Source of the DNA: Amycolatopsis sp. GM8
GTDB lineage: Bacteria; Actinomycetota; Actinomycetes; Mycobacteriales; Pseudonocardiaceae
Assembly (NCBI RefSeq): GCF_021653975.1
Contig: NZ_JAJKFK010000007.1
Coordinates: 62,001 to 126,000, forward strand
Reading direction: 5' to 3'
DNA length: 64,000 bases
Shown: one piece after another, positions 5,350-11,408 of the stretch
Layout of the letters: each line of letters begins with the position of its first letter
How positions within the stretch are numbered: the first letter of the stretch is position 1
Made by a program: the position numbers and the translations under genes
The notes under the pieces: generated by a model
The model's input: only the letters and a program-made list of their open reading frames with translations
Told to the model about the DNA's origin: nothing
Database searches by the model: none

Positions 5350-8027
<2,678 letters not shown>

Positions 8028-9893: not shown

Positions 9894-10115
9894 ATGCCGA
9901 CTTACGCCTTCCGGTGCCGCGAGTGCACCGAAACCTTCGAGGTCAACCGGCCCATGAGCGAGTCCAGCGCACCCGCCACCTGCCCCGAAGGCCATGCCGA
10001 CACGGTGAAGCTCCTCACGACAGTGGCCCTGACCGGCTCCGTCGGCGCCCCCATGGGTGGTGGCGGCGGCGGTGGTGGAGGTTGCTGTGGCGGTGCTTGT
10101 GGATGTGGGAACTAG
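9894..10115 (+). CDS. FmdB-type zinc-ribbon protein with Gly/Cys-rich tail
   Basis: 73-residue protein. It starts MPTYAFRCRECTETFEV, the FmdB/CxxC zinc-ribbon signature, followed by a second metal-ligand segment TCPEGH. After residue 52 it becomes almost pure glycine, a run of nine, ending CCGGACGCGN, which adds four more cysteines. FmdB proteins are putative regulators or metal-binding factors without a settled role. The tail could bind metal or be a flexible linker. It is followed by the palindrome-rich region and is convergent with dhaM. Confidence 0.75.
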   Translation: MPTYAFRCRECTETFEVNRPMSESSAPATCPEGHADTVKLLTTVALTGSVGAPMGGGGGGGGGCCGGACGCGN

Positions 10116-10152: not shown

Positions 10153-10307
10153 GAGTTGGGTGGTCATCCCGTCGCCTGACACAGGAACGATCACTTTTCG
10201 TCAGGGCCGCAACCTTCCTGCCCGGCTTGCGCCCGAGAACACAAAGCTTGCGGCCCTGAGGAAAAGTGATACTCGAAACCGCAGGCGACGGGATGACCAC
10301 CCAACTC
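10153..10307. repeat. 155-bp quasi-palindromic intergenic element
   Basis: A perfect 26-bp inverted repeat (10153-10178 with 10282-10307) encloses symmetrical 11-nt internal loops and then a 23-bp inner repeat (10190-10212 with 10248-10270) broken by one mismatch. Weak pairing continues inwards to a loop of about 27 nt. Both strands show open frames that mirror each other because of the symmetry; these are not genes. It lies in a convergent intergenic region. It could be a MITE-like or REP-like repeat or a transcribed RNA hairpin. No target-site duplication was visible. Confidence 0.75.
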
Positions 10308-10345: not shown

Positions 10346-10387
10346 CATCCTGGAGCCTGCCCGTCCGGCGAGGACATCTTTTTCTTT

Positions 10388-10426
10388 CCCCTCGCTCCGC
10401 GAGGGGTCCCGGCGCTTCGCGCCGGG
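10388..10426. repeat. Two back-to-back 8-bp hairpins
   Basis: The first hairpin (10388-10406) pairs CCCCTCGC with GCGAGGGG around TCC. The second (10408-10426) pairs CCCGGCGC with GCGCCGGG around TTC. A single unpaired T separates them. The T-rich stretch precedes them on the plus strand instead of following, so neither is an ordinary terminator for fmdB; for minus-strand transcripts they would be followed by A, not T. Confidence 0.65.
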
Positions 10427-10441
10427 TGGCTGTGATGGCCC

Positions 10442-10572
10442 ACCCCGATCGCCGATCGTCTAACGGTTGGCACGCCGTATCAAGGGCGCCTTCGGCGTCG
10501 CTTCGCGATGACCGCTGGCGCGGTCACCCTTGACACGACCCGCCAACCGCTAGGGCGGCTTTCTATCGGGGT
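10442..10572. other. Nested inverted repeats forming a cloverleaf with a four-way junction
   Basis: Three coaxial stems nest: 10442-10449 with 10565-10572 (8 bp), 10460-10471 with 10542-10553 (11 of 12), and 10477-10486 with 10527-10536 (9 of 10). The innermost stem closes on three contiguous hairpins: 10487-10497 (4 bp, TTC loop), 10498-10508 (4 bp, TTC loop) and 10509-10526 (7 bp, TGGC loop). No junction nucleotide is left unpaired, and 5-nt linkers separate stems two and three on each side. It may be a noncoding RNA, a mobile palindromic repeat, or a protein-recognised DNA cruciform. No known RNA family was recognised. Confidence 0.6.
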
Positions 10573-10730
10573 TGCGGGGGATATGGATGGGCTGGGTTGG
10601 TGGTTACGTTCCGTAGCCAGGCTCGTCTGCCGAGGGGCGGGTGCGGACTGCGCGGGCGTGTTTGCCCGCTGCGTCGGTGAATTTGCTCGTGGTGCGCGTG
10701 AGTTTGCGTGCTGCGCGGTGGGGCCGTGTC
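10573..10730. other. Remainder of the fmdB-dhaM intergenic region
   Basis: Nothing gene-like is supported here. The only structure seen is a weak GGGC/GCCC hairpin around 10655-10672. It may hold the 3' end of the dhaKLM transcript. Confidence 0.4.
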
Positions 10731-11408
10731 CTAGGCCTCGCCGAAGTTTTCCTCGACTAGCTTCCGGACGACGTCGAGGGCTTGTGTGGCCTGTGCGCCA
10801 CGTGCGCGCACCTCGATCCGGTCGCCTTTGCGGGCGCCTAGCGACATCAGGGCTAGGACGCTGTGGGCATCGGCCTCCTGCTCGCCGAGTGCCACGCTGA
10901 CATCCGCTTCGACGCCTACCAGTGCACGAGCCATCACTGCGGCCGGGCGTGCGTGTAGGCCAACTTCGTTGTGCAGCACCAATTCTACGCGATCCACGTC
11001 CGCTCCCCTGGTCGCTGTGGGAGCTGCCAGGTCCGGCGCACCGGCGGCGGCCGCGGCGGCGAGGACATCGGCACGGCTCGCCCCGCCCTGGGCGGCGACG
11101 GCGGCCGCGACCGTGCCTTCGACGAAGGGGGCGTCCGCGACGACAGCGGCTTCGGGATCGGGCAGCGACTCGACCGCCAGCTCGGCAGTCATCTGCGCGC
11201 TGCCCAGGTCATACAACAGCACGACGCCATCACCGCGATCAGCACGCTGGACCGCCGCCACGACCCGGTCGTAGTCCGTGCCGATCGTGCCCTCGGGCAG
11301 GCCACCCGCGGGCACGATCAGCACATCGGGCGCCATCTGCTCGGCGACCTCCGCGAGTCCTTCGGCCAGTTTTCCACTGTGGGACACCAGAACCAGTCCG
11401 ACGGTCAC
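10731..11408 (-). CDS. dhaM: Dihydroxyacetone kinase phosphoryl donor DhaM (EIIA-HPr fusion)
   Basis: 225-residue cytoplasmic PTS protein that passes phosphate from phosphoenolpyruvate, via enzyme I and HPr, to the ADP bound on DhaL. The N-terminal mannose-type EIIA domain carries the active histidine in LVLVSHSG (His10). After a long Ala/Gly-rich linker comes an HPr-like domain (about 138-225) with its active His152 in NEVGLHARPA. The EI-like third domain of Escherichia coli DhaM is absent, so general enzyme I must serve. It overlaps dhaL by 4 bp. Confidence 0.93.
   Translation of the reverse strand: MTVGLVLVSHSGKLAEGLAEVAEQMAPDVLIVPAGGLPEGTIGTDYDRVVAAVQRADRGDGVVLLYDLGSAQMTAELAVESLPDPEAAVVADAPFVEGTVAAAVAAQGGASRADVLAAAAAAGAPDLAAPTATRGADVDRVELVLHNEVGLHARPAAVMARALVGVEADVSVALGEQEADAHSVLALMSLGARKGDRIEVRARGAQATQALDVVRKLVEENFGEA

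Follow-up and report, generated by a model that had tools for sequence, protein, structure and literature searches.

A multi-copy cloverleaf-forming palindrome in an Amycolatopsis genome and its possible relation to the ends of DUF222-HNH elements

The analysed stretch of 64,000 nucleotides from Amycolatopsis sp. GM8, referred to here as the window, contains a palindromic element with a cloverleaf fold in a gap between two genes that are convergent by reading. The flanking open reading frames are one ending at 10115, which we take to be FmdB-like, and one at 10731-11408, presumably DhaM-like. The features of this locus are given in the order of the window coordinates.

10153-10307, - strand: separate second long palindrome, found at 35 places of the genome; in 14 cases it follows a strong cloverleaf
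10350-10387, - strand: conserved stretch AAAGAAAAAGATGTCCTCGCCGGACGGGCAGGCTCCAG, from the alignment of genome copies
10388-10406, - strand: hairpin two of the downstream block, CCCCTCGCGGAGCGAGGGG, from the same alignment
10408-10426, - strand: hairpin one of the downstream block, CCCGGCGCGAAGCGCCGGG, from the same alignment
10437-10592, - strand: cloverleaf unit, the stretch common to 17 near-full-length genome copies, the window copy among them
10442-10449, - strand: 3' side of the outer stem, partner of 10565-10572
10455-10460, - strand: -10-like hexamer GACGAT, between outer stem and long stem
10461-10486, - strand: 3' arm of the long stem, from folding and covariation
10478-10483, - strand: -35-like hexamer TTGATA, in the 3' arm beside the junction, 17 nt from 10455-10460
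10487-10497, - strand: hairpin 3, CGCC GAA GGCG, with a GNA triloop
10498-10508, - strand: hairpin 2, TCGC GAA GCGA, with a GNA triloop
10509-10526, - strand: hairpin 1, the first past the junction, of variable sequence and length; the window copy has a loop other than a GNA triloop
10527-10553, - strand: 5' arm of the long stem, from folding and covariation
10565-10572, - strand: 5' side of the outer stem, partner of 10442-10449
10628-10722, - strand: degenerate tandem repeat with units of about 21 bp, flanking the 5' side and common to many copies

The initial annotation had described a + strand element at 10442-10572, and direct reading of the sequence found its stems and three abutting hairpins where it had placed them. 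The fold stands, whereas the conserved fold lies on the - strand and the unit, at about 10437-10592, is larger. Read 5' to 3' on the - strand, an outer stem (10572-10565/10449-10442) is followed by an internal loop, the long stem and three hairpins without bases between them. The long stem closes with GTCAAGGG/CCCTTGAT (- strand) just before the hairpins, and the four-way junction has zero unpaired bases in the RNA and DNA folds alike. An A-C mismatch of the inner stem on the + strand (10479/10534) is a T-G wobble on the - strand. For the - strand, the cloverleaf was obtained by RNA folding (-85.3 kcal/mol, z -8.8) as well as by DNA folding (-51.0 kcal/mol, z -7.3). RNA folding of the + strand led to a different minimum (-68.6 kcal/mol, z -4.7) and DNA folding to the three-hairpin cloverleaf (z -5.2). 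On each strand, and with RNA and DNA parameters, none of 200 dinucleotide shuffles folded as well, in agreement with the earlier claim that chance formation is unlikely.

A BLAST search with a 171-bp stretch revealed 17 near-full-length copies in the genome, including the window copy, plus shorter ones. With a covariance model, 28 matches were detected, comprising 21 strong copies (score of at least 88 bits), 4 short matches of about 86 nt and 3 opposite-strand echoes. In the alignment of the 17 copies, conservation exceeds the element as first described: the 5' flank has the tandem repeat with its units of about 21 bp, and the 3' flank has two GC hairpins, the AAAGAAAAAGATGTCC... stretch and the second palindrome. 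The latter lies 129-138 nt past the cloverleaf in 14 of the 21 strong copies. One copy (L022) stops directly after the cloverleaf and another (L012) ahead of the second palindrome; because some copies end at such points, we regard the cloverleaf as the minimal common unit. The second palindrome (10153-10307) is a separate repeat family; with arms GAGTTGGGTGGTCATCCCGTCGCCTG, it lacks an adjoining strong cloverleaf at 21 of its 35 places. The degenerate tandem repeat (10628-10722) contains GCAAACACGCC and has 62 matches in the genome, several of them 5' of cloverleafs. As the contigs stand, 14 of the 21 strong copies are on the + strand, and no strand bias was seen. Likewise, inspection by eye of the matches listed for two other genomes (G006 and G016) showed no replication-strand bias, a weak comparison with the origin not located.

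Short matches of about 86 nt (G000 C1:887435, C12:632935 and C5:89930, and L051 from G009; three of the four in the window genome were inspected) retain the arms and the outer stem, and by eye a simple loop replaces the three hairpins. The four-way junction is a frequent, not an obligatory, top of one palindrome. At some loci (L169 near 5945, L034, L077 and L303 from G006) cloverleafs appear by eye to be cut by an insertion-sequence end (CTAACTAAGTGGCATTG or CTTAACTACGCGGCATTG), and in L169 the insertion-like joint lies immediately ahead of GTCAAGGG. An insertion sequence may target the cloverleaf structure.

For a test of covariation, copies were collected in three ways: a BLAST search with the window copy as query, an exact pattern of the core, and a core search allowing four substitutions. 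This gave 180 distinct copies, of which 173 were usable and were reduced to 61 cluster representatives; 57 of these formed the alignment (A1), with L207, L211, L127 and L169 left out. In these 57 divergent copies, 91.0% of 1650 cells are compatible with the cloverleaf pairing, compared to 31.6-51.1% when partners are slid. Both sides have changed in 17 of 29 pairs. The compensatory changes that the initial annotation suggested looking for are abundant: 222 both-sided cells stand against 74.5 (sd 6.0) in shuffles, none of 500 shuffles reaches 222, and the covariation score is 0.359 versus 0.108 (sd 0.007), the shuffles retaining the relatedness of the copies and the structure being drawn from the same copies. 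The G..A of two loops is prescribed by the exact core pattern, and core conservation is partly built in. Since the copies were chosen by their core, the support from covariation is that of the outer arms and hairpin 1, which underwent no selection on pairing and hold nearly all both-sided changes. One site, with the same neighbour families, is common to four genomes (L025, L136, L074 and L177); here the long stem is compensatory at three positions, which points to selection in place, and four stem cells are broken too.

Copies are not restricted to this genome. At E<=1e-6 the covariance model matched 82 of the 150 family genomes, distributed over 33 of 46 genera, many with 1-3 matches and five with 20 or more; within the genus, 13 of 19 genomes were matched (E<=0.001). 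The core pattern occurs in at least 116 stretches of GTDB genome contigs, from actinomycetes and from one record titled Acidobacteria MAG. It had no match in IMG/VR. The phage records and viral contigs that were searched gave no match either, on which ground a phage or viral origin was rejected, and among plasmid records only 2 matches were found. These two, on a Rhodococcus and a Streptomyces plasmid (L216 6001-6060 and L217 6001-6050), are single and cloverleaf-like and lie between annotated genes.

Presence and absence can be compared at the site of copy L022. Between its flank matches, the gap measures 382 nt in the window genome versus 59 nt in one relative (G006) and 345 versus 56 nt in another (G004). 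The flank matches are 42 nt apart in G018 and 6 nt in G008, compared to about 345-383 nt in the genome with the element; in other relatives the gaps are 106 nt or more. The site is filled here and near-empty in relatives, which are too diverged for an exact reading of the joint.

Regarding placement, 13 of the 21 own copies lie between convergent genes, compared to 7 of the 56 remaining gene pairs in the same stretches. These counts come from a home-made codon-usage ORF caller that misses the FmdB-like frame by the window copy, and with this frame 14 of 21 are convergent. Elsewhere, among the matches listed, 18 of 46 placements in loci of relatives and 25 of 113 in named loci are convergent. 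The nearest gene on the 5' side is directed at the unit in 17 of the 21 own copies, and the 3' side meets a gene end in 15. Genes that by eye resemble toxin-antitoxin pairs adjoin cloverleafs in Nonomuraea and Isoptericola (L140 369-1048 and L147 5966-6842).

Clustering of the open reading frames near cloverleafs yielded one large recurrent family, DUF222 with HNH, comprising 51 frames at 42 loci, some of which are one place fetched twice (e.g. L084 and L102). Other neighbour families have five members at most, and several reflect plainly orthologous neighbourhoods. Of the 124 core matches listed for the 116 named loci, 35 have a DUF222-HNH gene no more than 1.6 kb away on their 5' side and none has one on the 3' side; for many of these matches the available 5' sequence is shorter than 1.6 kb, and the DUF222 profile used for the count was built from frames adjoining cloverleafs. 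The 5'-side neighbours among these matches are found in Actinomadura (23 of 44), Herbihabitans (8 of 10), Labedaea (2 of 4) and YIM PH 21723 (2 of 3); DUF222 is nearby in none of the 63 listed matches from 23 of the 27 organism groups. The neighbour proteins are diverse, with identities to the first one as low as 19%. DUF222 was over the cut-off in all four neighbour proteins scanned from other genera, and in the same four proteins HNH was over the cut-off in one, below it in one and unreported in two. Across 16 neighbour proteins, columns of two Cys, His, Cys and His are invariant. In Pfam, DUF222 remains a domain without an assigned function. A cloverleaf upstream of a DUF222 gene lies on the strand opposite to the gene, and at seven or more Actinomadura loci as well as in YIM PH 21723 (L050, L212) two inverted units flank the gene with their 3' sides outward. 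By eye, no target-site duplication is evident in seven Actinomadura composites. At one locus (L143), a DUF6924 gene (6942-7370) and a DUF222-HNH gene are enclosed by two cloverleafs. As further neighbours, IscB was rejected (the IscB model scored 20.7 bits, cut-off 175, in one of three proteins, and no family was reported in the other two), as was a known defence gene in the three proteins scanned.

Approached from the nuclease side, the association is narrower. Searches for DUF222 gave no match in the window genome and none in G016, which has the most cloverleaf matches in the genus (42). Of 39 distinct DUF222 loci scanned with the cloverleaf model, two have a match at E<1e-6 (L257, and L254 to a short variant only); the scan included all 30 loci that a DUF222 search had returned. 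DUF222 loci do not generally contain the cloverleaf: some genera show a strong link, and most DUF222 loci have none. DUF222 genes themselves can be numerous, with at least 31 matches per genome in 4 of 61 genomes. A palindrome scan covered 50 DUF222 loci, of which 11 duplicate another and 39 are distinct. An upstream palindrome was found at 7 of the 39; one of these palindromes is at -9, another is the cloverleaf, and a third is the short variant. The baseline in the window is 1 of 61 genes, namely the one next to the second palindrome. Palindromes of other sequence lie 168-226 bp upstream of DUF222 genes in L271, L290 (G025), L266 (G024) and L288 (G033), and in L290 and L288 also downstream of the gene. 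That several palindrome families flank DUF222 nuclease genes is only suggestive.

The initial annotation had offered three options, a structured RNA, a mobile palindromic repeat or a protein-bound DNA cruciform. The repeat was borne out by the copies, the one filled or near-empty site and the nuclease neighbours elsewhere. Between the nucleic acids, the loops are informative. In the 67 copies found by BLAST, hairpin 2 has a GNA triloop in 56 of 65 cases and hairpin 3 in 62 of 66; the remaining 13 loops are four-base G..A loops in 12 cases and CCA in one, and in 30 three-base loops the middle base differs from the A of the window copy. Over all copies, GNA is found in 166 of 172 hairpins 3 and 158 of 168 hairpins 2, counts for which the core pattern fixes the loop G and A. 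Hairpin 1 is more variable in its loop than the other two. RNA more often uses tetraloops (GNRA, UNCG). GNA loops reportedly form extraordinarily stable DNA minihairpins, according to the title of Yoshizawa et al. (1997), a reference of PMC7432603. The loop type favours DNA over RNA; the ViennaRNA DNA parameters as loaded give every triloop one value, and triloop energies are not discriminating here.

Mispairs bear on the number of strands. In the long-stem arms of the 57 copies, G-T and T-G together number 46 versus 8 for A-C and C-A, whereas independent columns predict 53.4 and 30.8. A second count of the arms in 61 copies gave 38 mispairs of the G-T type versus 7 of the A-C type. For the inner eight pairs the numbers are 19 and 1 and for hairpin 1 they are 3 and 2; hairpin 2 is reversed (G-T 0, C-A 9), which we suspect to reflect misalignment of those copies whose hairpin 2 is longer. 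A two-strand cruciform should treat G-T and A-C alike; the arms therefore speak for the - strand, and the excess is more in line with a single folded strand than with a symmetric cruciform of two strands. Taking loops and mispair bias together, a single-strand DNA fold fits best, and the mispair bias fits RNA equally.

On balance, the element is rather probably a solo, non-autonomous palindromic repeat related to the ends of one group of DUF222-HNH elements. In such a scheme, the - strand, when single-stranded, would fold into the closed four-way junction of long stem and three abutting hairpins, and the cloverleaf would be the end, that is, the recognition site, of one DUF222-HNH element group. 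The DUF222-HNH protein would recognise the folded junction or the internal loop and would nick or cut there, and repair or replication could then move the element. HNH nucleases are members of the His-Me finger group, as is T4 endonuclease VII, an enzyme that cuts junctions. A four-way junction with every base paired would be a sensible nuclease substrate, and by analogy the inverted units around a gene resemble element ends. Solo copies may have been mobilised in trans or left behind, or the nuclease may since have been lost; they would sit in intergenic gaps as the place of least harm. Against mobility, the many genomes with 1-3 copies are equally consistent with vertical retention.

A more far-reaching proposal is that undescribed mobile DUF222-HNH (13E12-type) elements exist, with single-stranded DNA cloverleaf ends that are read by HNH as a structure-specific nuclease, and that solo copies over many actinomycete genera are their trans-mobilised offspring. 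This we put forward tentatively and regard as somewhat doubtful. The literature covered on DUF222, 13E12/REP13E12 and palindromic repeats, which included few subscription papers, contains no description of such an element.

Among the alternatives, a structured RNA fares best, although we consider it unlikely: the unit would be a 3' UTR or a small RNA with a protein-binding cloverleaf, transcribed from the - strand, or else a guide RNA for DUF222-HNH in the manner of HEARO/IscB. The - strand also gives the best RNA fold, the excess of G-T over A-C is expected for RNA too, and the 5'-side nearest gene directed at the unit in 17 of the 21 own copies would agree with a 3' UTR. However, hairpins 2 and 3 mostly carry GNA triloops, unlike the GNRA and UNCG tetraloops, and upstream of a DUF222 gene the element lies on the opposite strand, unlike omega RNA. 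Any Rfam family was rejected, as a search of 1.1 kb of the window and 43 kb of six loci left every family below its gathering score.

Rather improbable is a retained intergenic structure similar to REP/BIME, serving as terminator, topology sink or nucleoid site and having lost its mobility. The position of 13 of the 21 own copies between convergent genes, the compensatory changes at three long-stem positions of the four-genome site and the 1-3 copies in many genomes agree with it. However, four stem cells are broken at that same site, a scan found no terminator-like site, and the recurrent DUF222-HNH neighbour and the inverted pairs are left unexplained.

A single-stranded DNA promoter or origin (Frpo/sso-like), with the -35 in the duplex arm and the -10 in the bubble and a transcript or primer starting there, appears more improbable still. 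A pattern nACnnT follows TTGAnn by 15-19 nt in 43 of 61 3' arms versus 2 of 61 mirrored 5' arms, with 39 of the 43 spacings being 16 or 17, and was picked after the arms had been inspected; the pattern tried first, [TGC]AnnnT, gave 36 versus 6 mirrored (61 copies). By eye, hairpin-less short matches (L051, L239, L240 and L244) retain the arrangement. However, a sigma-70 consensus scan of the window element finds no site, the motif may instead be a protein site, the 3' side mostly meets a gene end (15 of 21 own copies), and there are only 2 matches in plasmid records and zero among phage and viral ones. Because the sigma-70 scan finds nothing, the promoter is kept here as a rival or an added function; it is compatible with the solo repeat proposed above and may be either. 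A local accident of a GC-rich gap, where high GC often gives weak stems, is contradicted by copies, covariation and shuffles and can be practically dismissed.

The solo repeat related to DUF222-HNH element ends can be compared with several known systems. MITEs are likewise short, non-coding, repeated and equipped with complementary ends, but the cloverleaf comes with no evident transposase or target duplication. Two traits of MITE- and REP-like repeats were found, namely dispersed non-coding copies (the 21 strong ones and the 82 matched family genomes) and, at the one L022 site, presence and absence at an orthologous position. REP/BIME with RAYT and the ends of IS200/IS605 are likewise short intergenic multi-copy palindromes that fold on one strand and whose gene-less copies outnumber the others; the cloverleaf differs from them in its four-way junction, its GNA loops and its DUF222-HNH partner in other genera. 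REP/RAYT as a present driver was rejected, as a search of the window genome for the Y1 HUH transposase (PF01797) found none, while the control was positive in 5 of 14 genomes. HEARO/IscB omega RNA is also a structured element that adjoins an HNH gene and has many solo copies. The cloverleaf, in contrast, has no Rfam match, lies upstream on the opposite strand, forms inverted pairs around some genes and has DUF222, not IscB, as its neighbour. Frpo-type promoters and sso share the one folded strand and the -35/-10-like hexamers, of which the -10 lies in a bubble, whereas the cloverleaf is chromosomal and multi-copy, no link to conjugation or rolling-circle replication was seen, and its promoter is putative.

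The mycobacterial 13E12 (REP13E12) repeats share their nuclease family with the proposed elements, DUF222-HNH being, according to Pfam, the family that adjoins cloverleafs. In the accessible portion of PMC10589994, REP13E12, HNH endonuclease and DUF222 are named together; cloverleaf ends are not mentioned in that portion or in the other 13E12 literature covered. The DUF222 family would gain a candidate substrate from the conserved DNA structure beside some of its genes and, if the proposal is true, the cloverleaf DNA fold would join the small number of single-strand folds that are known to drive mobility.
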